Assembly (NCBI GenBank): GCA_028275445.1
Contig: JAPWUQ010000006.1
Location: 1-34,372 of the forward strand
Length of the DNA stretch: 34,372 bases
Reading direction: 5' to 3'
From: Anaerolineae bacterium
GTDB taxonomy: Bacteria > Chloroflexota > Anaerolineae > JACIWP01
Part shown: positions 11,957-25,299 of the stretch, piece after piece
Position numbering within the stretch: position 1 is the first letter of the stretch
How the letters are laid out: every line of letters begins with the position of its first letter
Notes under the pieces: generated by a model
The model's database searches: none
What the model saw: the letters and a program-made list of their open reading frames with translations, nothing else
Told to the model about the DNA's origin: nothing
Translations under genes and position numbers: made by a program

Positions 11957-13453
11957 ATGCGGGCAAACCGGGCAGTGGACAGACTGCAGGAGATATTCTT
12001 TGGGCAGGACCGCCGGCTGGCCCTGGCGGCGCTGACGCTGGTGATCATCGGCGCCGGCCTGCTGGTGGGCGCCTACGTGGCCGCGCTGGGGCCACTGCTC
12101 GCGGCGGCCCTCTCCATCGCCCTGGTAGTTGGCCTGTTGATGCTGCGCAGTACGCAGTGGGGCTTTTTCGCCGTGGTCACGGTGGCCTGCCTCCTGCCCT
12201 TCGGCGCCCTGCCGGTGGACATCGGCTTCCGGCCCACGTTCCTGGACCTGGTGCTGGTGGTGCTGTACTTCGTCTGGGTCAGCGCCTATGTCACCGGCCG
12301 GCGCAAGGAGTTCATCGCCTCACCGCTGGGATGGACGGTTTTCCTTTTTATGGCGCTGGCCTGCGCCTCGTTCATCGCCGGCCTGACCCATACCCGCCTG
12401 ACGATGTACGTCCTGCGCCACTTCGCTGAAATCCTCATCGCCATCGGGCTGTTCTTCGTGGTGCTGAACACCATCCGCACGCCGGCACAGCTCCGCCAGG
12501 TCCTGCAGGCCACCGCCCTGGCCGGCACCTTTGAAGCGGCCATCGGCATCTTCCTGTACGTTATCCCGCCGGCATGGTCCATCCGCCTGCTCTCCGCCCT
12601 GGGGCGCTTCAACTACCCCACCGGCGCCGGCGTCCTGCGCTATATCGAGGACAATCCCGAGCTGCCCATGCGCGCCATCGGCACGTCCGTGGACCCCAAT
12701 GTCCTTGGTGGGCTGATGGTGCTCATCGGGGGACTGCTGGTCCCCCAGCTCTTCGCCCGCCGGCCGCTGTTCCGCCGCTGGATAAGCGCCGGCATGCTCC
12801 TGCTGGTGGTCACCTGTCTGTACCTGACCTATTCGCGCGCCGCCCTGCTGGGATTTGCGGCCGCCTCCCTGCTGGTGGCGGTCCTGCGCTACCGCAAACT
12901 GCTCATCCTGCTGGTCATCGCCGGCCTGCTCTTCTTCCTGCTCCCGCAGACCCAGGACTATGTGACGCGCCTGATCGAGGGACTGCAGGCGCAGGACCGC
13001 GCCACGCAGATGCGCCTGGGAGAGTACAAGGATGCCCTCATCCTCATCTCCCGCTATCCCTGGTTCGGCGTGGGGTTCGCCGGCACCCCCGATATTGACA
13101 CCTATTTGGGCGTCTCCAGCGCCTATCTGCTGATGGCCGAACAGATGGGTCTGGTCGGGGTGGGCGTGTTCCTGCTGTTCCTGGTGCGGCTGTACCTGGC
13201 GGTCTGGCGGGGATGGCGCCGCGTGCGCGCTCATCAAAATGAAGAGCTGGAGCCGCTGATGCTGGGCGCCTGGGCCGGCCTTTCCGGCGCGCTGGTGGCC
13301 GGCGTCCTGGACCATTATTTCTTCAACTTCGACTTTCCGCATTCGGTGACCCTCTTCTGGCTGTTCATCGGCTGGTGCGCCGCGGCGGCGTATATGGCCC
13401 TGCAGGCGCCGGCCTCATCCGTATCTGGTGGAGGAGCGCATGCCGCTGGTTGA
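11957..13453 (+). CDS. O-antigen ligase/polymerase-like (Wzy/WaaL) membrane protein
   Basis: About 10 or more hydrophobic segments; YLTYSRAALLGFAAASLLVAVL and GVGFAGTPDIDTYLGVSSAYLLMAEQMGLVGVGVFLLFLV resemble the Wzy_C domain. Confidence 0.82.
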   Translation: MRANRAVDRLQEIFFGQDRRLALAALTLVIIGAGLLVGAYVAALGPLLAAALSIALVVGLLMLRSTQWGFFAVVTVACLLPFGALPVDIGFRPTFLDLVLVVLYFVWVSAYVTGRRKEFIASPLGWTVFLFMALACASFIAGLTHTRLTMYVLRHFAEILIAIGLFFVVLNTIRTPAQLRQVLQATALAGTFEAAIGIFLYVIPPAWSIRLLSALGRFNYPTGAGVLRYIEDNPELPMRAIGTSVDPNVLGGLMVLIGGLLVPQLFARRPLFRRWISAGMLLLVVTCLYLTYSRAALLGFAAASLLVAVLRYRKLLILLVIAGLLFFLLPQTQDYVTRLIEGLQAQDRATQMRLGEYKDALILISRYPWFGVGFAGTPDIDTYLGVSSAYLLMAEQMGLVGVGVFLLFLVRLYLAVWRGWRRVRAHQNEELEPLMLGAWAGLSGALVAGVLDHYFFNFDFPHSVTLFWLFIGWCAAAAYMALQAPASSVSGGGAHAAG

Positions 13454-14453
13454 GGAGTTTGTGAAGGCCTTCGGCGTCTGGGACGTGGCCCAGCCGTATA
13501 TCGAGCGCATCGTGGAAGAGCCGGAAATGCGCCTCATCGTCGCCATGCGTGGACAGGCGCTGACGGTCGAAGAGGCCGCCGAACGCCTGGGGATGGCGCC
13601 GGCAGAGGCCGCGGCGTTCCTCGAACGCTGTTATCAGCGCGGCATGGTGCATAAGCAGGAGGGGGAAGACGGCGTCCGGTATGCGTCGGCCGATTTCTAC
13701 ACGCGCCTCGACTACTTTATCCGCTTCGGCGAATGGAAGCAGTTGCCGGCGGAGGCCCGCCGTGCCCTGGATGAGCGCTATGTGCGCGAATACGCCGCCC
13801 GGGTGCGCCCGACGGTCGAGGCGCGCATGCGCGGCGAGGAGACCGAAGCGCATCTGCACAACGACGCGGTGATGCTCCTGCCGGAAGTCGAGGAGATGGT
13901 CGAGGCGGCCCAGGAGATCATCGTCCTGCCGTGCGACTGCCGGCTGGCCGGCGAGCACTGCGACCGCCCCATCGAGGTCTGCATCTGGATGGATGACCTG
14001 GCGCGCGGCATGCTGGCGCGGGGACACGGCCGGCGGATCACTTCCGAGGAAGCGCGCCAGCTCCTTCGCTGGGCGGACAAAAAGGGCCTGATGCACACGG
14101 CTGACCCGAACTGGCGGGAACACGGCCTGACGGCCATCTGCAACTGCTGTGCCTGTGACTGCTACCCCTTCCGCGCCGCCGGCATGCTGGGAAGCAAGGG
14201 AACCTGGCCGCGCTCGCGCTATATCGCCGCGTATGACCGGGACAGGTGCAATCTGTGCGGCGCCTGCGTGCGGCGCTGTCATTTCGGCGCCTTCTCGTTC
14301 GATGGAACCACGGTCATGGTGGAGGGGAAGGAGCGCCGCAACGTGGTGTATGAGCCGGCGCTCTGTTGGGGCTGTGGGCTGTGTGCCAACACCTGCCCCA
14401 CCCAGGCCATCCGCATGGAACCGCTCTCCTCTGGAGGGGATTCTTCCGCATGA
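13440..14453 (+). CDS. Cys-rich 4Fe-4S ferredoxin-type protein with N-terminal winged-helix-like region
   Basis: ATG at 13440 with GGAGG upstream. Cys motifs: CDCRLAGEHCDRPIEVC, CNCCACDC, CNLCGACVRRCHFGAF, CWGCGLCANTCPTQAI. N-terminal QALTVEEAAERLGMAPAEAAAFLERCYQRGMVHKQ resembles an HTH. Confidence 0.82.
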   Translation: MPLVEEFVKAFGVWDVAQPYIERIVEEPEMRLIVAMRGQALTVEEAAERLGMAPAEAAAFLERCYQRGMVHKQEGEDGVRYASADFYTRLDYFIRFGEWKQLPAEARRALDERYVREYAARVRPTVEARMRGEETEAHLHNDAVMLLPEVEEMVEAAQEIIVLPCDCRLAGEHCDRPIEVCIWMDDLARGMLARGHGRRITSEEARQLLRWADKKGLMHTADPNWREHGLTAICNCCACDCYPFRAAGMLGSKGTWPRSRYIAAYDRDRCNLCGACVRRCHFGAFSFDGTTVMVEGKERRNVVYEPALCWGCGLCANTCPTQAIRMEPLSSGGDSSA

Positions 14454-15823
14454 CGCGCATCGTGCGGGTGCTGGCTGTGCCGGCCTCTGGCGGCTATTAT
14501 TACGAGGACCTGGCCGCGCTTCAGGCGCGCCATATCCCGGTCGAGGAGCGCTACACCGCGCCGGCGGTCACGCCCGGCTTCCGCTTCGTGCGCGAGCCAG
14601 CCGAGGCGGTTTCGGTGGGCCTGGTGCTGGACGACGGCCAGGTAGCCTGGGGGGACTGCGTCGGTGTGGCCTACAGCGGCAAGGCCGGCCGCTTCCCGCC
14701 CTTCCGCGCCGCCGAGGGGACGGCGGTCATCCAGCAGGTGGTGGCGCCGTTCCTGGAAGGCCGGCCGGTAGCCAGCTTTCGCGAGCTGGCCGGCGGTCTC
14801 GATGCCCTGCGCCAGGTGGTGGAGGAGCGCCGGCCCCTGCCGCGCCCGCCGCGCGCCGGGCGCCTTTCGCGGCGCGAGTTCCTGACCGCGCCGGCGCGCC
14901 TGCTGGCGCCGGAAGAAGAGCCGCCGATGGAAACTGTGCGCCAGGAGCGCCCCCTCCATCCGGCGATCCATTACGGCGTCACCCAGGCGCTCCTGCGCGC
15001 TGTGGCGCTGTCGCGCCGGCTAACCATGGCGGAAGTCATTGCGGAGGAATGGGGACTGCCGGCGCCCGAATCCCCGGTGCCCATTCATGCCCAGTGCGGC
15101 GGTGACCGCTATCACGGCGCGGACAAGATGATCGCGCGCCGGCTGGCCTCCCTGCCGCATGCCCTGGTGGACGATATTGATGAGCAGTTAGGGCCGAATG
15201 GGGGACGCCTGATCCAGTATGCCCGATGGCTGCGCAGCCGCGTCGAGGCCCTTGGTGGGCCGGAGTACCGCCCGACCATCCATTTGGACGTGCACGGCGC
15301 GCTGGGTAAAATCTATAACAACGTGCTGGGCAAGGTGCTGGGCGACCTGTACGCGCTGGAGCTGGCGGTGGCCCCCCTGCCCCTGCGGGTGGAAAGCCCG
15401 GTCATCATGGAGACTCTGCCGGCGCAGTTGGAGGCACTGCGCTCCCTGCGCGATTATATCCGCATCCGCAAGATGCGGGTGCAGATCGTGGCCGACGAAT
15501 GGGCCAACACCCTGGAGGATATCCGGCAGTTCATCGCCACACGCGCCGCAGATATGATCCAGATCAAAATGCCCGACATGGGCGGGATTCACCACACGGT
15601 GGAGGCGGTGCTGGCCTGTAAGGCCGCCGGCATCGGCGCCTTCCTGGGCGGAAGCTGTGTGGAGACGGACCTCTCCGCCAGAGCGGCGGTGCATGTTGCC
15701 CTGGCGACCCAGCCGGCGATGATGCTGGCGCGCCCGGGCATGGGCGTGGACGAGGCGATCATGATCGTCCAGAACGAGATGGCGCGTGCGCTGGCCTGCA
15801 TCCGCGGCCGGCGGGGAACATAG
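14450..15823 (+). CDS. Methylaspartate ammonia-lyase homologue (enolase superfamily), divergent active-site pocket
   Basis: VLDDGQVAWGDCVGVAYSG, HPAIHYGVTQALLRAVA, IHAQCGGDRYHGADKMI, LPHALVDDIDEQLG, IHLDVHGALG, VADEWANTLEDI, MIQIKMPDMGGI, GAFLGGSCVETDLSA, LARPGMGVDEAIMIV align with MAL family motifs; ATGA overlap with the 4Fe-4S gene. ORF track start 14366 corrected to 14450. Confidence 0.88.
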   Translation: MTRIVRVLAVPASGGYYYEDLAALQARHIPVEERYTAPAVTPGFRFVREPAEAVSVGLVLDDGQVAWGDCVGVAYSGKAGRFPPFRAAEGTAVIQQVVAPFLEGRPVASFRELAGGLDALRQVVEERRPLPRPPRAGRLSRREFLTAPARLLAPEEEPPMETVRQERPLHPAIHYGVTQALLRAVALSRRLTMAEVIAEEWGLPAPESPVPIHAQCGGDRYHGADKMIARRLASLPHALVDDIDEQLGPNGGRLIQYARWLRSRVEALGGPEYRPTIHLDVHGALGKIYNNVLGKVLGDLYALELAVAPLPLRVESPVIMETLPAQLEALRSLRDYIRIRKMRVQIVADEWANTLEDIRQFIATRAADMIQIKMPDMGGIHHTVEAVLACKAAGIGAFLGGSCVETDLSARAAVHVALATQPAMMLARPGMGVDEAIMIVQNEMARALACIRGRRGT

Positions 15824-15943: not shown

Positions 15944-17380
15944 ATGGTCCTGCAGAGCAATTACGTGATGTACCTGACCCCTCAGTTCCGCAAGCTCTCC
16001 AACGACCAGCTTGCGCAGATCCACAACGCCAGCCTGGAGATCCTGGACCGCACCGGCGTCTGCCTGTACGAGGAGGAAGCGCTGAACCTGTTGAAAAAGG
16101 CCGGCGTCAAGGTGGAAGACGGCAACCGCGTGCGCATCCCGCCCGGACTGGTCGAATGGGCCCTCTCCATCGCTCCCAAGCGGGTCGTGCTGTGCGACCG
16201 CAACGGCCGGCGCGTCATGCCGCTGGAACGCAACAACGTCTTCTTCGGGCCAGGCTCCGACTGCCCGAATATCCTGGACCACCGCACCGGGGAGCGCCGG
16301 CGCGGCACCCTGCGCGATATCGAAGAGGGCATCCGCCTCTGCGACGCACTGCCCAACATTGATTTCCTCATGTCCATCTGCATCGCCTCCGACATCGACC
16401 AGCAGGTGGCCGACCGCTATCAGATGCGCGCCATGCTGATGAACAGCACCAAGCCCATCCTCTTCGTCACCACCGAGTTTGAGGGCACGGTGGACGCCAT
16501 CAAGATGGCCGAGGCGGTCGCCGGCGGTGAGGAGGAACTGCGCCGCAACCCCATCTGCGCCCTGTACATCAACGTCACCTCGCCGCTCCGCCACAATACC
16601 GAGGCCCTGCAGAAACTGCTCTTCATGGCCGGCAAGGGCCTGCCCACCACCTATACCCCGGTGGTCCTGCGCGGCATCAGCGGCCCGGTGACGCCGGCCG
16701 GCGCGCTGGCCCTGGCCAACGCCGGCGAACTGGCCGGCCTGGTCATCGCCCAGCTCAAGCGCGAGGGGGCGCCCATCATCCTCAGCGGCGGCACCAACGA
16801 TATGCTGGACATGCGCACCCTGGGCGACGTGTACGCCGCGCCCGAGAATCGCGTCATGTTCGTCGAGATGGCCCATTATTACGGTCTGCCGGTCTTCGGG
16901 TTGGGCGGCGCCAGCGACTCCAAGCTTCCCGATGAGCAGGCGGCGGCCGAAGCGGCCTTCTCGCTCATCCTGGAAGCACTGGCCGGCACCCACCTGGTGC
17001 ACGACGTGGGCTACCTGGAGTCAGGCATGACCAACTCCTTCGAGCAGATCGTCATTTGCGACGAGCTGATCAACTACGTCAAGCGCTTCATGCAGGGCCT
17101 GGTCGTCAACGAGGAGACCCTGGCGCTGGACGTGATTGACCAGGTGGGGCCGCACGGCGATTTCCTGGGCACAGAGCACACCGCCCGGCACTATAAAGAG
17201 GATTGGTACCCACGCCTGTTGGACCGCAATGATTTCGACACCTGGAAGGCCGCCGGCGGCAAGACCCTGCGCCAGCGCGCCCGCGAGCGGGTGGAAGAGA
17301 TCCTCTCCAGCCATCGGCCGGAGCCCCTGCCGAAGGACGTACAGGCGAAAATTGACGCCATTGTGGAGGGGGCGCATTGA
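15944..17380 (+). CDS. MttB superfamily (trimethylamine methyltransferase family) corrinoid protein methyltransferase, non-pyrrolysine type
   Basis: LSNDQLAQIHNASLEILDRTGVCLYEEEALNLLKKAGVKVE (MttB N-terminus), FGPGSDCPNILDHRTGERR, FGLGGASDSKLPDEQAAAEAA, complete ORF without an in-frame amber; SD CCGGAGGAAAC. Confidence 0.9.
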   Translation: MVLQSNYVMYLTPQFRKLSNDQLAQIHNASLEILDRTGVCLYEEEALNLLKKAGVKVEDGNRVRIPPGLVEWALSIAPKRVVLCDRNGRRVMPLERNNVFFGPGSDCPNILDHRTGERRRGTLRDIEEGIRLCDALPNIDFLMSICIASDIDQQVADRYQMRAMLMNSTKPILFVTTEFEGTVDAIKMAEAVAGGEEELRRNPICALYINVTSPLRHNTEALQKLLFMAGKGLPTTYTPVVLRGISGPVTPAGALALANAGELAGLVIAQLKREGAPIILSGGTNDMLDMRTLGDVYAAPENRVMFVEMAHYYGLPVFGLGGASDSKLPDEQAAAEAAFSLILEALAGTHLVHDVGYLESGMTNSFEQIVICDELINYVKRFMQGLVVNEETLALDVIDQVGPHGDFLGTEHTARHYKEDWYPRLLDRNDFDTWKAAGGKTLRQRARERVEEILSSHRPEPLPKDVQAKIDAIVEGAH

Positions 17381-18741
17381 TGGATGGCACGGCCCTGGTC
17401 GCCCAGTTCATCGCCGGCACACGCTGGGAGCACCTGCCGCCGGCGGTACAGCGCAAGGCGCGCCTGACCCTGCTGGATGCCCTGGGGGCGGCGCTGGCCG
17501 GCCTGCAGGCTCCCGTGGCGCGCATCACCGCCGAATTTGCGGAGGAGACCTGGCCCGGCGAGCAGGCGACCATCCTGGGGAGCGGCCGGCGGGCATCCGC
17601 CGCCGGCGCGGCCTTCGCCAATGGCTATGCCGCCAACGCCATCGACATTGACGACTGCGCGCTTTACACCAAAGGGCACCCTGGCGCGCAGATTTTCCCC
17701 ACGGCGCTGGCGCTGTCCGAGGCGCTGGGGCGGAGCGGGGCGGAGATGCTGGCCGGCATGGTGGTCGGCTACGAGGTGGCCCACCGCGCTGCCCGCATTT
17801 GGCATGCGGCGCACCGCGAGTATCAGGCCTGCGGCTCGTGGGGATCGGTGGCCTGCGCGGCGGTGGCATCGCATCTGATGGGCCTGCCGCCGGCGCAGAT
17901 ACAACACGCCCTGGGCATCGCCGAATACCACGCGCCTAACCTGCCCATGATGCGCGACATTGACCATCCGGCCATGGTCAAGCACGGCATCGGCTGGGGA
18001 GCGATGAACGGCATCCTGTCCGCCCAACTGGCGGCGCGCGGTTTCACCGGCATTCCCAGCCTGTTCAGCCTCGAGACCTATGCCGATTGGGTGAACGACA
18101 TCGGCCGGCATTTCATCATGGTGGACGGCGTCATCTTCAAGACCTACTGCGCCTGCGCCTGGGGCCACGCCAGCTTTGACGCGGCGCGCCGGCTGGTGGA
18201 TGAACACCATATCCGCATCGAGGATATCAGCCACATCCGCATCGAGACCTTCCATAATGCCGTGCGGCTGGGCGCCAACCTGCCGGCCACCACCGAGGAA
18301 GCCCAGTTCAACGTGGCCTGGCCGCTGGCCTGTCTGCTGGTGGATGGGGAGATCGGGCCGGCGCAGGTGCTGGAAGAGCGCCTGCAGGACGAGCGCCTGC
18401 GCGAGCTGGCGAGCAAGGTGGAGCTGGTGGAGTCGCCGGAATACACCGCGTTATACGAGAAGATGGCGCGCGGGGAGGCCGGCGGCAAATACCTGAGCAG
18501 TGTCACCATCACCCTGCGCGACGGCCGCACATTCCGCAGTGGGCCGGTCGAAGGGAACATCGCGTACCCTCAGCCCTGGGATGAGGAAAAGGCGGAGCGC
18601 AAGTTCCGCTGGCTGGCCGGCCGCCTCCTGCCGGCGGATTTCATCGAACACGTGCTGGAAACGGTCCGGCAGTTCGAGGCACTGCCCGACGTGAGGCCCT
18701 TTGTGGCCGCGCTGTGCGAGCATCTCCCAAGGATCGGGTGA
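17377..18741 (+). CDS. MmgE/PrpD family protein
   Basis: ARLTLLDALGAALAG-type N-terminus, NGYAANAIDIDDCALYTKGHPGAQIFPTALALSEA, PAMVKHGIGWGAMNGILSAQLAARGFTG, VIFKTYCACAWGHASFDAARRL; ATGA overlap with the MttB gene. Confidence 0.9.
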   Translation: MMDGTALVAQFIAGTRWEHLPPAVQRKARLTLLDALGAALAGLQAPVARITAEFAEETWPGEQATILGSGRRASAAGAAFANGYAANAIDIDDCALYTKGHPGAQIFPTALALSEALGRSGAEMLAGMVVGYEVAHRAARIWHAAHREYQACGSWGSVACAAVASHLMGLPPAQIQHALGIAEYHAPNLPMMRDIDHPAMVKHGIGWGAMNGILSAQLAARGFTGIPSLFSLETYADWVNDIGRHFIMVDGVIFKTYCACAWGHASFDAARRLVDEHHIRIEDISHIRIETFHNAVRLGANLPATTEEAQFNVAWPLACLLVDGEIGPAQVLEERLQDERLRELASKVELVESPEYTALYEKMARGEAGGKYLSSVTITLRDGRTFRSGPVEGNIAYPQPWDEEKAERKFRWLAGRLLPADFIEHVLETVRQFEALPDVRPFVAALCEHLPRIG

Positions 18742-18823: not shown

Positions 18824-21595
18824 ATGGCAGAGATCCGGTTCCTCCTGAACGGACGGGAAGTGACATATGTGGGCGACCCTGGCCGCAGTCTGCTGACGGT
18901 CCTGCGCGAGGATTTCGACGTTATCGGTCCCAAGCAGGCCTGCGACGGCGAGGGGGAATGCGGTGCCTGTGCGGTACTGCTGGATGGGGAGGCGGTGCGT
19001 TCCTGCCTGATACCGGTGGGCAAGGTCGCCGGCCGGCAGATCATCACCATCGAGGGCCTGGGCAGTGATGAGCGCCTGCACCCGCTCCAGCAGGCCTTTA
19101 TCGAGTACGGCGCCGTGCAGTGCGGCTACTGCACCCCCGGCATGATCATCTCCGCCGCGGCGCTCTTACTGCGTGACCCGCGTCCCAGCCGCCGGCGCAT
19201 CCTGGAAGAGCTGGGCGGCAACCTCTGCCGCTGTACCGGCTACCACGCCATCATCGCGGCGGTGGAAGCGGCGGCGGCCATGATGCGGGGCGAGACACCC
19301 CCGCCGCCGGCCCTCCCCCACCACGCCGACGGCCGGCCCTACAGCGCGCCCATCATCGGCAAACGCCTGACCCGCGTGGACGCCGTCGAGAAGGTCACCG
19401 GCAGGGCGCGCTACGCCGAGGACATCAAAATGCCCGGCATGCTCTATGCCGCCATCACCCGCAGTCCCCATCCGCACGCCAGGGTCCTGCGGATTGACAC
19501 GACGTCGGCGGAACGCATGCCCGGCGTCGTCAAGGTGCTGACCGCACAGGACATTCCCGGCCATAACGACCTCGACGATTACAGCCTGGACGAGCATGTC
19601 CTGGCTTTCCCGGGCGATTCGGTGCGCATGATCGGCGATGCGGTGGCCGTTGTGGTGGCGGAAACGATGGAGCAGGCGCGCGCCGCCGCGGACGCGGTGC
19701 AGGTGGAGTATGAAATCCTGCCGCATACGTTCGACCAGGAAGAGGCGCTGTCGCCCGATTTCCCGCCCATTCACGCCGGCGGCAACATCCTGGATTCCTA
19801 CGAGATTCACTTTGGAGAGCTGGAGCCGGCCATGGCGCGGGCCGACCTGCACCTGGAGACGCAGTACGAGACCGTCTTCCTGGAGCACTCGGCGCTGGAG
19901 CGCGAGACGGTGGTGGGCTATTGGGACGAGAACGAGGTGCTGACGCTGATCGCCGGCACGCAGGAGCCGCACTGGGCGCGCGATTTCACCGCCTGGGCCA
20001 TGGGCCTGCCGCCGGAAAGGGTGCGCGTCATCACGCCGCCCATGGGCGGGGCCTTCGGCGGCAAGCAGGACCCGTGGCCGGTCATCGCCGGCGCGCTGGC
20101 GGCCTATTACGTGCGCCGGCCGGTGCGCCTGGCCTACACCCGCCATGAATCCTTCAACGCCTCCCCCAAACGCCATCCCTACCGCATGCGCTATCGGATC
20201 GGCGCCCGCCGGGACGGCACCCTCACCGGACTGCACCTGCGCATCCTGGCCAACACCGGCGCCTATGACTCCGCCGGCCGCTGGATACCGCAGTACGCCC
20301 TGGTCGCCGGCGGCGGGCCGTACCGCTGGGAGGCGGTGGATGCCGTGTGCCATGCCATTTACACCAACGGGCCGAAGGCCGGCCAGATGCGCGGCTACGG
20401 CACCCCGCAGTCCATGTTCGCCCTGGAGTGCACCCTGGACGAGCTGGCAGAGCAGTTGGGCATGGACCCGCTGGAACTACGCCTGCGCAACGCCCTAGAC
20501 GGCCAGACGACCACCTTCCTGGGCTATCCGCCGGCCGAGACCTTCGCCTACCGCGAGTGCCTGGAGTCCATCCGCCCGCATTACCAGGCTGCGCTGGCCG
20601 CGGCCGAGGAATACAACCGCCGGCATGCCAACACCCCCTGGCGCAGAGGGGTGGGCCTGGCCGGCATGTGGTACCGCTTCGGCAAATCGGGCGACCCCCG
20701 CTGTCCAGCCGAAGCGGAACTGCGGGAGGACGGCACCCTGGCCTTCTATTTCTCGGCGCCGGATTACGGCCAGGGCACCAGCACCGTCATGCTTCAGATC
20801 GCGGCCGAGACGCTGGGCATCCCGGTGGAGTATCTGGAGTTCGTCAACGCCGACACCAGCCTGACCCCGGACAGCGGCATCCAGGGCGCTTCGCGCAGTA
20901 CATATTGGGTGGGCGGCGCGGTGCATCAGGCCGCCAGGACGCTGAAGGAGCAGATCTTCGCCATGGCCGCCGAGATGCTGGAGGCGCCGCCGGACCAGCT
21001 CACCCTGACGCCGGCAAGCGTCAAAGGCCCCAACGGCCAGGAGGTTGCTCTGGCGGAGGTCGCCCGCCAGATGAAGCGCGCCGGCTGGCCCCTGCGCGTG
21101 CGCGGCGTCTTTGCCCCCAGCCCCACGCTTCCAGAAACGCGTCCCGAATATCTGCCCTTCTTCGCCACTGGCGTGCAGTTCGCCGAGGTGGACGTGAACA
21201 TCGAGACCGGCGAGGTAAAGGTCGTGCGCATGGTGGCGGTGCACGACGTGGGGCGCGCCATTAACCCCCAGAGCGCGCTGGGGCAGATTGAGGGCGCCAT
21301 CGTCATGGGAATGGGCGCCGCGCTGGAGGAGGAATTCATCCCTGGTGTGAGCACCGGCTTCAGCAACTACTACCTGCCGGTGGCGGTGGAGGTGCCCAAA
21401 ATCGAGGTGTACCTGGTGGAAGTGGCCAGCAACTGGGGGCCGATGGGCGCCAAGGGGCTGGGCGAGATGGCCATCCTGGCCTCTACGCCGGCCATCATCA
21501 ACGGCATCTACCGCGCCAGCGGCGGGCGGGTGCGCAAACTGCCGGCCACCCCCGAACGCGTGCGCCAGGCCATCCAGGAAGCACACAAACGATAG
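18824..21595 (+). CDS. Xanthine dehydrogenase/aldehyde oxidoreductase family, single-chain 2Fe-2S + molybdopterin hydroxylase (no FAD domain)
   Basis: 2Fe-2S motifs CDGEGECGACAVLLDG, CGYCTPGMI, GNLCRCTGY; Mo domain GGAFGGKQD, MRGYGTPQSMFALE, and GAKGLGEMA carrying the expected catalytic Glu. Start at 18824 (MAEIRFLLNGREV). Confidence 0.92.
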   Translation: MAEIRFLLNGREVTYVGDPGRSLLTVLREDFDVIGPKQACDGEGECGACAVLLDGEAVRSCLIPVGKVAGRQIITIEGLGSDERLHPLQQAFIEYGAVQCGYCTPGMIISAAALLLRDPRPSRRRILEELGGNLCRCTGYHAIIAAVEAAAAMMRGETPPPPALPHHADGRPYSAPIIGKRLTRVDAVEKVTGRARYAEDIKMPGMLYAAITRSPHPHARVLRIDTTSAERMPGVVKVLTAQDIPGHNDLDDYSLDEHVLAFPGDSVRMIGDAVAVVVAETMEQARAAADAVQVEYEILPHTFDQEEALSPDFPPIHAGGNILDSYEIHFGELEPAMARADLHLETQYETVFLEHSALERETVVGYWDENEVLTLIAGTQEPHWARDFTAWAMGLPPERVRVITPPMGGAFGGKQDPWPVIAGALAAYYVRRPVRLAYTRHESFNASPKRHPYRMRYRIGARRDGTLTGLHLRILANTGAYDSAGRWIPQYALVAGGGPYRWEAVDAVCHAIYTNGPKAGQMRGYGTPQSMFALECTLDELAEQLGMDPLELRLRNALDGQTTTFLGYPPAETFAYRECLESIRPHYQAALAAAEEYNRRHANTPWRRGVGLAGMWYRFGKSGDPRCPAEAELREDGTLAFYFSAPDYGQGTSTVMLQIAAETLGIPVEYLEFVNADTSLTPDSGIQGASRSTYWVGGAVHQAARTLKEQIFAMAAEMLEAPPDQLTLTPASVKGPNGQEVALAEVARQMKRAGWPLRVRGVFAPSPTLPETRPEYLPFFATGVQFAEVDVNIETGEVKVVRMVAVHDVGRAINPQSALGQIEGAIVMGMGAALEEEFIPGVSTGFSNYYLPVAVEVPKIEVYLVEVASNWGPMGAKGLGEMAILASTPAIINGIYRASGGRVRKLPATPERVRQAIQEAHKR

Positions 21596-21655: not shown

Positions 21656-23233
21656 TCAATCCTCCCGATAGTGACAGCCGTGGCTCTCCTTCGCCTCCCA
21701 GGCCGCCCAGGCCACGATGAGCGCCGCTTCGACGCTGTTGCGCAGGCCGATCAGCCCGTCCGTCAGCCACGTGGTGCGGTAGAAGCGGTCGATCTCCCGC
21801 TGAAGGTGCAGGAGGTCGTCAATAGCACGCTCCAGCCGGCGCGTGCTCCGCACCAGCCCCACATAGTTCCACATGATGTGCTGGATGGTCACCATGTCCT
21901 GATGGATCAGCGCCGGGTCGGCGGTGTAGATCAGCCCTTCCTCGCTCCAAGGTGGGATATCGTCCGGGGAGGCCTGATAATCGCCCAGGGTCTCCACCGC
22001 GTCGATGCCGGCGCGGTAGCCCCAGGTCAGGCCCTCGAGCAGTGAGGCACTGCCCAGGCGGTTGGCGCCGTGCACGCCGGTGCACGAAACCTCCCCGACG
22101 GCATAGAGGTCGCGGATGCTGGAACGGCCCTTATCATCCACCCAGACACCGCCGCAGAAATAGTGCGCCGCCGGCACCACCGGGATGAGATCACGGGTGA
22201 TGTCCACGCCGTTCTCCAGGCAGTTCTGGTAAATGGTCGGGAAGCGCTGGCGGATGGCCTCCGGCGACATGACGGAGCGCAGGTCGAGATAGACGTGGTC
22301 GGCGCCGGTCGCCAGCATCTCGCGGTGGATGGCGCGCGCCACCTCGTCGCGCGGGGCCAGCTCCTTCCACTGCGGGGCATACTTGTGCATGAAGGGCTCG
22401 CCGTGGATATTGAGCAGGCGGGCGCCGGCCCCCCGCACTGCCTCCGAAATCAGGAACAGCGAGGCGCCGCGCTTGTAAAAGGCGGTGGGATGGAACTGCA
22501 CGTACTGGGCGTTGATAATGCGGGCGCCGGCGCGGTGGGCCATCGCCAGGCCGTCGCCGCGGGCGCTGGGCGGGTTGGTGGTGTGCAGGAAGATGCGCCC
22601 CAAGCCACCGGTCGCCAGGATGGTCTTGCGCGCCAGGATAGGCTCCACATGGCCGGTGCTCTGGTTAAAGACGTACGCGCCCACACAGGTGAGGGGTGCG
22701 TAGACGGCCTGCGGGTTGCGGGAGTGGTGCGCCGGCGTGATGAGGTCCACCGCCGTATGGCCGGCCAGCAGGGTGATGTTGGGGCAAGCCCTCAGCGCCT
22801 CGATGGCCCGCTCCTCGATCGCCTTCCCCGTCGCATCCGCCACATGCAGGATGCGCTCGGTGGAATGGGCCGCCTCGCGGATATACTCCAGCTCCTCATC
22901 CGGCCGCTCGGAGAAAGAGACGCCCAGGCGGTCAATGAGAAACTCCCGCACCAGGCGAGGCCCTTCGTGTGCCAGCAGGGCGACCGCCTTCGGGTCGTTG
23001 CAGTAGTCGCCGGCGCGCATCAGGTCTTCCATCAACAGTTCCGGCGAATCTTTCGGCCCCAGGCCAATGATGCCTCCCTGGGCGTAATAGGTGCTCGACT
23101 CGCGCGGGTCCGTCGGGTTCGTGATCACCAGGATATGGCGGTCCGGGGCGCGCTCCGCCGCCGTCAGCGCCGCCACACAGCCGCTGATGCCGCTCCCGAT
23201 GACCAGGATATCGGTCAGGATGTGCTCGCCCAT
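21656..23233 (-). CDS. nadB: L-aspartate oxidase
   Basis: ILVIGSGISGCVAALTAAE (FAD), STYYAQGGI, GRIFLHTTNPPSARGDGLAMAHRAGARI, HPTAF, GVHGANRLGSASLLEGL; adjacent nadA/nadC. Confidence 0.95.
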   Translation of the reverse strand: MGEHILTDILVIGSGISGCVAALTAAERAPDRHILVITNPTDPRESSTYYAQGGIIGLGPKDSPELLMEDLMRAGDYCNDPKAVALLAHEGPRLVREFLIDRLGVSFSERPDEELEYIREAAHSTERILHVADATGKAIEERAIEALRACPNITLLAGHTAVDLITPAHHSRNPQAVYAPLTCVGAYVFNQSTGHVEPILARKTILATGGLGRIFLHTTNPPSARGDGLAMAHRAGARIINAQYVQFHPTAFYKRGASLFLISEAVRGAGARLLNIHGEPFMHKYAPQWKELAPRDEVARAIHREMLATGADHVYLDLRSVMSPEAIRQRFPTIYQNCLENGVDITRDLIPVVPAAHYFCGGVWVDDKGRSSIRDLYAVGEVSCTGVHGANRLGSASLLEGLTWGYRAGIDAVETLGDYQASPDDIPPWSEEGLIYTADPALIHQDMVTIQHIMWNYVGLVRSTRRLERAIDDLLHLQREIDRFYRTTWLTDGLIGLRNSVEAALIVAWAAWEAKESHGCHYRED

Positions 23234-23254
23234 CTCCCCCTCCTTCTTCGTCCC

Positions 23255-24319
23255 TCAGATGGAGAGCATGCGCTCGAGGGCGATGTTCGCCCAGCGCGTG
23301 GTCTCCGGGTCCACGGTGATGTGTCCCACCAGCCGGCCCTCCAGCAGGCTCTCCAGGGTGTACAGCAGATGGGCAATGGTGGTGCGGGCCATGGTGCCGC
23401 AGAAGGATTTGGCCAGGGGCACCACGGTTTTGTCCGGCTGTTCGCGATCCAGCCGGTAGACCAGGTTGCATTCGGTGCCGACGACGAAGGTACTGCCGGC
23501 CGGCGCCGCCTCCACCTGCTTGATGATGTACGAGGTGGAGCCGTTCAGGTCCGCCGCCTGCACCACCGGCACCGGGCATTCGGGGTGGACGATAACGATA
23601 CAGCCGGGATAGCGCCGGCGGGCCTCCTCCACATGGGCCACCGTGAAATGCGTGTGCACGTGGCAGTACCCCTTCCAGACTACGATCTGGGCGTGATCCA
23701 GATCGGGATCGCCCCCAAAGGGCGCGCCCGGGTCCCATACGGCAACCTGTTCCAGGGAATAGCCCAGGGCGAGGGCCGTGTTCTTGCCCAGCCATTCATC
23801 CGGGAAGAAGAGGATGCGCTTGCCCTGGTCAATGGCCCAGCGGAAGACGGCGCGCGCGTTCGCCGAGGTGCAGACCGCGCCGCCGTGCCGGCCGCAGAAG
23901 GCCTTCAGCTCGGCGCTGGAGTTCTGATAGGTGATGGGCACGATGTTCTCCTCCCCCCAGACGCCGGCGACATGGCGCCAGGCGACCGCCGCGTCGGCCA
24001 CCGAGGCCATCATCGCCATGGGACAGGGGGCCTCCATCGCCGGCATCAGCACCGCCTGGTGCGGCGCGCACAGCATGGCGGCGGTCTCCGCCATGAAGCT
24101 CACCCCACAAAAGACGATATATTTGGCTTCCTTCTGCTGGGCCGCCAGGCGCGACAGTTCCAGCGAATCGCCGCGGAAGTCGGCGAAGCGGATGATATCA
24201 TCGCTCTGGTAATGATGGCCGAGGATCACCACGTCCCGGCCCAGCTTCTGGCGGGCGATCGCGGTTCTCTCCAGCGCTTCTTCTCGCGGCAGTCCCACAT
24301 ATTCAGCCGGCAACCTCAT
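23255..24319 (-). CDS. nadA: Quinolinate synthase
   Basis: VILGHHYQSDDIIRFADFRGDSLELSRLAAQ, VFCGVSFMAETA, FFPDEWLGKN, VHPECPVPVV, GTECNLVYRL, CGTMARTT. Start at 24319 (MRLPAEY) after GGAGGG. Confidence 0.95.
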   Translation of the reverse strand: MRLPAEYVGLPREEALERTAIARQKLGRDVVILGHHYQSDDIIRFADFRGDSLELSRLAAQQKEAKYIVFCGVSFMAETAAMLCAPHQAVLMPAMEAPCPMAMMASVADAAVAWRHVAGVWGEENIVPITYQNSSAELKAFCGRHGGAVCTSANARAVFRWAIDQGKRILFFPDEWLGKNTALALGYSLEQVAVWDPGAPFGGDPDLDHAQIVVWKGYCHVHTHFTVAHVEEARRRYPGCIVIVHPECPVPVVQAADLNGSTSYIIKQVEAAPAGSTFVVGTECNLVYRLDREQPDKTVVPLAKSFCGTMARTTIAHLLYTLESLLEGRLVGHITVDPETTRWANIALERMLSI

Positions 24320-24349
24320 GCCCTCCCTCCTCAACGCCCGGAATGCCCC

Positions 24350-25210
24350 TTACCGCTGAAGGGGCTCGACCTCCAGGCTGATATCCAGTGCTGTGACAGA
24401 ATGGGTCAGCGCCCCGACGGAAATGTAGTCCACGCCGGTCTCCGCAATGGCGCGCACCCGCTCCAGGGACACACCGCCCGAGGCCTCCAGGGGGACGCGG
24501 CCGGCGGTCATCTCCACCGCCCGCCGCATGGTTTCCAGGTCCATGTTGTCCAGCATGATGCGGTCCAGCGGGGGCTGGATGGCCAGCGCCTCTTCCAGCT
24601 CCGCCAGCGACTTCACCTCCACCTCGACGGGCAGGCCGGCCTGATTATGGACCCGCACGCGCGCCACCGCCTGGGTGATGCCGCCGGCGGCCGCGATGTG
24701 ATTGTCCTTGATCAGCACCATGTCGAACAGCCCGAAGCGGTGGTTCTGCCCCCCGCCCAGGCGCACCGCCCATTTGTCCAGCACCCGCAGTCCGGGCGCG
24801 GTCTTGCGCGTGTCCAGGATGACGGCGCGGGTGCCGGCCACCGCATCCACATAGCGGCGCGCCGCGGTGGCGATGCCCGACATGCGCTGGAGGAAGTTGA
24901 GGGCCGTGCGCTCCGCCCCCAGGACAGCCCGGGCCGGCCCCTGGACCACCGCCAGCACATCGCCGGCGCGCACCCTCTGCCCATCCTGGCACAGGGATAT
25001 GAAGCGCACCCGCTCATCCACCAGGTGGAAGACCGCCGCCGCCACCGCCAGGCCGGCGACCACCCCATCCGCCTTGGCCAGCAGTTTGCCCTCCAGCTCC
25101 AGCTCCGCCGGCAGGGTCCACTGGCTGGTGACATCGCCCGGCCCGATATCTTCATCCAGCGCCCGTCGGATAATCTGCAGGATTTCCGGCGTGATCTCCG
25201 GCGCGACCAT
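24350..25210 (-). CDS. nadC: Nicotinate-nucleotide pyrophosphorylase (carboxylating)
   Basis: LDEDIGPGDVTSQ, ERTALNFLQRMSGIAT, LDTRKTAPGLRVLDKWAVRLGGGQNHRFGLFDMVLIKDNH, LEASGGVSLERVRAIAETGVDYISVGALTHS. Confidence 0.96.
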   Translation of the reverse strand: MVAPEITPEILQIIRRALDEDIGPGDVTSQWTLPAELELEGKLLAKADGVVAGLAVAAAVFHLVDERVRFISLCQDGQRVRAGDVLAVVQGPARAVLGAERTALNFLQRMSGIATAARRYVDAVAGTRAVILDTRKTAPGLRVLDKWAVRLGGGQNHRFGLFDMVLIKDNHIAAAGGITQAVARVRVHNQAGLPVEVEVKSLAELEEALAIQPPLDRIMLDNMDLETMRRAVEMTAGRVPLEASGGVSLERVRAIAETGVDYISVGALTHSVTALDISLEVEPLQR

Positions 25211-25241
25211 TCGGCGCTCCTTCCGTCCATATGTACGGGCA

Positions 25242-25247
25242 AGTGTA
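25242..25247 (-). promoter_or_regulatory. Possible -10 (TACACT) for the nadC-nadA-nadB operon
   Basis: TACACT on the minus strand with TTGCGC about 17 bp upstream, in the divergent intergenic region. Confidence 0.3.
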
Positions 25248-25299
25248 CTACAAAGCCCACCGGCGCGCAAACAGATTGCCGCCCTGCGGCCGTATGCGC

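Follow-up and report, generated by a model that had tools for sequence, protein, structure and literature searches.

Gene organization of the MAL-like locus

The window analyzed here is the whole stretch of 34,372 nucleotides of contig JAPWUQ010000006.1 from an Anaerolineae bacterium (Chloroflexota). It carries a gene for a 457-aa homologue of methylaspartate ammonia-lyase (MAL; EC 4.3.1.2), located in an operon with genes for iron-sulfur, MttB-superfamily, MmgE/PrpD and molybdenum hydroxylase proteins (Table 1). The MAL-like ORF and the upstream 4Fe-4S gene overlap in an ATGA sequence.

Table 1. Features of the MAL-like gene and its operon (window coordinates)
Feature	Position	Strand	Basis
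4Fe-4S protein, translationally coupled, upstream of MAL	13428..14453	+	Profile match; same place in L020, L033, L035, L040, L134
MAL-like enolase-superfamily protein, remodelled pocket	14450..15823	+	Pfam/NCBIfam; PDB 3zvh/1kcz/1kko; AF2 pLDDT 94.6
Ala74 codon (opposite Gln73 of C. tetanomorphum MAL)	14669..14671	+	PDB alignment; MAFFT
Insert specific to the clade (aa ~120-162), modelled as a hairpin whose tip bears two short helices	14807..14935	+	Alignment; AF2 model
SRREFLT motif (aa 140-146)	14867..14887	+	Alignment; pattern comparison with 62 other MALs
Non-pyrrolysine MttB-superfamily methyltransferase, no in-frame TAG	15944..17380	+	PF06253, 350 bits
MmgE/PrpD family protein	17377..18741	+	Closest solved: cis-aconitate decarboxylase, iminodisuccinate epimerase
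Xanthine-dehydrogenase-type Mo hydroxylase, fused 2Fe-2S domain	18824..21595	+	Pfam/NCBIfam profiles

The assignment to MAL in the preliminary description was borne out by matches to Pfam MAAL_C (321 bits) and MAAL_N (151 bits) and to NCBIfam TIGR01502 (428 bits versus a cut-off of 286). Both by sequence and by fold, the best PDB relatives are the MAL of Clostridium tetanomorphum (1kcz), its mutants Q73A (3zvh) and L384A (3zvi), and the Citrobacter MAL (1kko). An AlphaFold2 model, built with an alignment of the protein's own family, had a mean pLDDT of 94.6, and the predicted fold is that of MAL (TM 0.81-0.86). Family profiles, fold, metal ligands and residues H194, K331, Q329 and Q172 all place the protein in the MAL family.

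MttB proteins act on methylated amines; the one encoded next to the MAL-like gene has 2qne and 9yce (glycine betaine methyltransferase) as its closest PDB entries. All known MmgE/PrpD enzymes use substituted 1,4-dicarboxylates, including iminodisuccinate (PMC12290011); the similarity of the window protein to iminodisuccinate epimerase amounts to only ~100 bits. Convergent with the operon, nadB, nadA and nadC lie in a row (21656-25270, minus strand), probably serving ordinary NAD synthesis.

Active site and substrate pocket

Residues were compared in a PDB alignment and in a MAFFT alignment against 71 loci, and C. tetanomorphum MAL numbering was converted to that of the window protein. The metal ligands (D238/D280, E273/E315, D307/D349), the catalytic pair (H194/H237, K331/K373), and Q172/Q215, C361/C403 and L384/L426 are retained, as had been read by eye, and so are Q329/Q371 and M389/M431. 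The four proposed substitutions were recovered in both alignments: Gln73 to Ala74, F170 to His213, Y356 to Phe398 and T360 to Ser402. The PDB alignment places Ala74 opposite Gln73 with no gap, as does MAFFT. A further pocket change, Y240 to His282, had escaped notice. The engineered Q73A enzyme, earlier ascribed to Citrobacter, is in the PDB (3zvh) the C. tetanomorphum MAL.

In CaMAL, the pocket for the 3-methyl group is made up of F170, Y356 and L384, Q73 reaches the amino group via water, and T360S is kinetically near-neutral (PMC7241714). Of this hydrophobic pocket the window protein keeps L384, with F170H and Y356F at the other two positions. Q73, F170, Y240 and Y356 were among the positions mutated when the pocket was enlarged by engineering to take bulky substrates (PMC10992142).

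Classical MALs, as represented by 71 public loci and extra genomes, have Q73, F170, Y240 and Y356. T360S and Y356F occur also in MALs outside the clade of uncultured Chloroflexota to which the window protein belongs; judging from the alignments, only Q73A, F170H, Y240H and the insert set this group apart among the changes seen in the window protein. All intact clade members have His at position 170, and at position 240 they have His too, except for Gln in L134. At position 73 most members have Ala, but L036 and L136 have Glu and L042 has Cys. What the clade shares is thus the loss of Gln73, not the presence of Ala, and Ala73 was rejected as the defining trait because Glu and Cys occur. The clade is defined by His170, the SRRxFLT insert and gene context.

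The complete active site is kept and the gene is under purifying selection (dN/dS of 0.12 against the genus relative L033), so the product is, on sequence grounds, most likely an active enzyme.

A clade-specific insert

The window protein contains a 42-aa insert, absent from the preliminary description, between C. tetanomorphum positions 118 and 121. It is modelled by AlphaFold2 as a hairpin (strands 121-129 and 160-168) tipped by two short helices. SRRxFLT or SRRxLLT(G) was found in all 20 aligned clade members, seven catalytically dead ones included, with the variants ARRRFLS in L038 and TRRALLTG in L025; the motif was found in none of 62 other MALs. Among 373 neighbouring proteins, the pattern otherwise matched two N-terminal Tat-type signals, both in substrate-binding proteins, and one apparent chance occurrence. 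A Tat signal can be dismissed, since the motif lies at aa 140 and is not followed by a hydrophobic stretch.

The N-terminus of Escherichia coli NapF, VKIDASRRGILTGRW, contains the similar SRRGILTGRW. NapF, which is cytosolic, serves in Fe-S maturation and binds NapA (PMC10609526). The resemblance is short and confined to the motif, and may be regarded as suggestive. The insert would probably dock a partner protein of the island.

Genomic context of the clade

Eleven clade loci from the genome collection were compared with 60 other MAL loci. MttB genes were present in 11/11 clade loci and in only one of the 60 others (p 5e-12), while glutamate mutase E (GlmE) was nearby in 0/11 versus 30/60 (p 0.0017); the loci are related, and these p-values describe association, not independent events. 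No PF06368 (glutamate mutase) match was found in the window genome G000 (92.6% complete), G002, G011 (100% complete) or G050; G001 and G007 gave matches below the cut-off only. G003 gave a weak match of 29 bits, and a clear one was obtained only in G041. In the latter genome all glutamate mutase components (S, L-like, E) are encoded at one locus (L143:6040-9313) with no adjoining MAL, and the sole MAL found in that genome is of the clade type. An Aerophobetes operon (L044:5208-9461) combines a classical MAL with both glutamate mutase and an MttB homologue.

Profile searches of G000 yielded 21 MttB matches and five MtgC/MttC-like corrinoid-protein matches, the corrinoid proteins being encoded elsewhere in the genome. 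By rough arithmetic, 21 MttB genes put ~5% of G000 within 3 kb of one. One MttB adjacency by itself therefore proves little, but its recurrence in several families cannot be called weak evidence. The MttB genes form several orthologous groups, one of which lies downstream of MAL in seven loci.

Related islands contain, in varying combinations, genes for an Opp-type ABC transporter, CBS-domain protein, 4Fe-4S protein, MmgE/PrpD, Mo hydroxylase, corrinoid proteins (MtgC homologues among them), MtgA, a RACo-type activase, alcohol dehydrogenases, HutH/HutU and an Asp/Glu-racemase-like protein. The last was found in L038 and, by sequence resemblance to L038 only, in L134. HutH/HutU occur in L020, L035, L037 and L040. 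Degradation of histidine betaine or ergothioneine was considered on this account and set aside: HutU scores as an ordinary urocanate hydratase, far above its thiourocanate hydratase score, and most other clade loci have no Hut genes within the stretch examined.

Phylogeny and decayed sister proteins

In a tree computed without the insert columns, a branch supported at 95/82 separates the Chloroflexota clade (19 rows) from the rest; when L085 of Bdellovibrionales, which has Ser73, His170 and no insert, is counted in, support is 100/100. The preliminary description had asked whether an Ala73 clade is monophyletic and syntenic. The group marked by the insert and, in its intact members, His170 falls on one branch and has MttB genes in all 11 loci from the genome collection, but Ala73 varies within it.

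Ten intact clade members are placed nearest the classical MALs. The full set of catalytic residues is present in the window protein and ten intact relatives with full-length sequence, and is invariant in this subset despite ~35% divergence. L039 and L109 are partly decayed. L025, L138, L139, L140, L141, L145 and L146 form a 100/100 sister group on long branches, with an unsure internal order, in which most catalytic positions are lost (e.g., D307 to G/K/H, K331 to N/S/E/D and H194 to Y/F/W). Pfam MAAL_C is still detected in those tested. These decayed sisters, located at equivalent loci, keep the SRR insert, and most adjoin genes for MttB, a CBS-domain protein and/or an Opp-type ABC transporter; the ABC-CBS-MAL order is retained around catalytically dead members. 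On the decayed branch the motif has been kept while the active site was lost.

Altered pockets elsewhere in the MAL family

Three MAL paralogues occur in Chelativorans sp. J32 (L087:8704-11185 and 19806-21050), two of them arranged in tandem; a dipeptide-type ABC transporter and, by eye, a TMADH/old-yellow-enzyme-like flavoprotein are encoded nearby. In Hyphomicrobiales (L071:9619-13564 and L081:1374-9279), the genes downstream of MAL variants with I73, S172 and A361 encode a substrate-binding protein and MmgE/PrpD, and L081 also has Opp-type transporter genes; uptake and cleavage of an N-substituted aspartate is a possible role for this cluster. In Ca. Formimonas warabiya (L076:6181-20792), a MAL with N170 and A384 lies near a Mo hydroxylase, an MtgA-like protein and, by eye, fumarase-like and UbiX-like genes. 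Two genes upstream of the MAL relative in L085 (7665-11182) resemble, by eye, a 2OG-dioxygenase-like protein and an aldehyde dehydrogenase. Since such altered-pocket groups sit in unusual clusters, the MAL family probably holds several specificities beyond those assayed.

Proposed function of the MAL-like protein

We consider it close to an even chance (about 0.48) that the window protein is an active enzyme of the MAL branch, performing MAL chemistry on a modified aspartate other than 3-methylaspartate within a methylated-amine island of Anaerolineae. The preliminary description had based such a substrate on the natural Ala. Pocket changes, the lack of glutamate mutase in the window genome and several relatives, and MttB linkage favour it; Ala73 itself is a weak predictor of specificity, because position 73 is not conserved. 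A changed lyase specificity is plausible, and the MttB and MmgE/PrpD context would accommodate an N-substituted or bulkier aspartate. MttB points to methylated amines and the 1,4-dicarboxylates of MmgE/PrpD match the aspartate skeleton, so a lyase for N-methylated or otherwise modified aspartate is a reasonable proposal, at about even odds.

In the island as we picture it, an Opp-type ABC transporter would perform uptake, and MttB proteins would demethylate the substrate, passing methyl groups via MtgC-like corrinoid proteins to tetrahydrofolate. The lyase would act on a 1,4-dicarboxylic modified aspartate: with the carboxylate bound to Mg, Lys373 would deprotonate the carbon alpha to it, and the amine would be lost from the beta carbon. 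Loss of Gln73 may give room around the amine, and His170 and His240 may stand in for part of the hydrophobic pocket. MmgE/PrpD would epimerise or isomerise the dicarboxylate, and the Mo hydroxylase would also belong to the island.

Several observations weigh against this modified-aspartate lyase. Besides the variable position 73, the MttB-rich genome eases chance adjacency, G041 combines a genuine glutamate mutase with only a clade-type MAL, and in L044 MttB occurs with a classical MAL beside glutamate mutase. An ordinary methylaspartase, acting on 3-methylaspartate with neutral drift of the pocket, would fit the TIGR01502 equivalog score, the nearly neutral T360S and the glutamate mutase of G041. 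We regard it as unlikely because of the MttB linkage, which replaces the glutamate mutase context, and because glutamate mutase is missing from the window genome and from several of its close relatives, among them G011 at 100% completeness; moreover, F170H strikes the 3-methyl pocket (PMC7241714). A similarly low probability is given to another enolase-superfamily reaction, epimerisation or racemisation of a related dicarboxylate or amino acid. The breadth of the pocket changes (Q73, F170, Y240, Y356), the MmgE/PrpD neighbours and the Asp/Glu-racemase-like protein of L038 and L134 would suit it, but the MAL-specific H194, K331, Q329, Q172 and C361 are all retained and the score lies far over the MAL equivalog cut-off.

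The seven dead sisters also count against the lyase, and catalysis may not be the whole story. Because these proteins, with like neighbours, lost their catalytic residues, the island can run without the MAL reaction, and the MAL-like protein may be partly or wholly an accessory of it, or may yet acquire a non-catalytic role by way of the insert. That it is mainly a non-catalytic scaffold, sensor or maturation factor, with the insert as the working part and an ancestral or ligand-sensing active site, appears doubtful. The restriction of the motif to the clade, dead members included, the gene order kept around these and the opening of NapF speak for such a role, but the catalytic residues of the intact subset are invariant, and the likeness to NapF is a short motif only. 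A broader view may be advanced tentatively and with less conviction than the modified-aspartate lyase: a MAL-derived family would have been recruited as an MttB partner into corrinoid methylated-amine islands of Anaerolineae, with the SRRxFLT module as the selected feature and a lineage spanning intact lyases of new specificity to dead proteins.

The window protein is a natural counterpart to the engineered Q73A lyase, and its defined clade and operon offer a starting point for a substrate search. The database name, methylaspartate ammonia-lyase, assigned by equivalog score, is probably misleading for it. The series from intact to dead members provides a test case of an enzyme becoming an accessory protein. 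We know of no substrate for most members of the MttB superfamily, and a candidate C-N lyase is hereby added to MttB-based degradation of quaternary amines.

Comparison with known systems

With the MALs of C. tetanomorphum (1kcz) and Citrobacter (1kko), the window protein shares the fold, metal ligands, catalytic His and Lys, Q172, Q329, C361 and L384; it differs in Q73A, F170H, Y240H, Y356F, the 42-aa insert, its MttB neighbours and the lack of a glutamate mutase partner. The engineered C. tetanomorphum Q73A enzyme (3zvh) has Ala at the same position, whereas the window protein is natural and combines it with further pocket changes and the insert. The iminodisuccinate epimerase plus C-N lyase route is paralleled in the window by an MmgE/PrpD protein encoded beside a candidate C-N lyase of an N-substituted aspartate, the difference being the low similarity between the two MmgE/PrpD proteins noted above. 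Betaine demethylation by the MttB superfamily (MtgB, MtpB, MtcB and MtyB with MtqC/MtqA) resembles the related islands in the non-pyrrolysine MttB, corrinoid protein, THF methyltransferase and RACo activase; unlike the window island, the available parts of the MtyB and DCMF accounts mention no MAL homologue.
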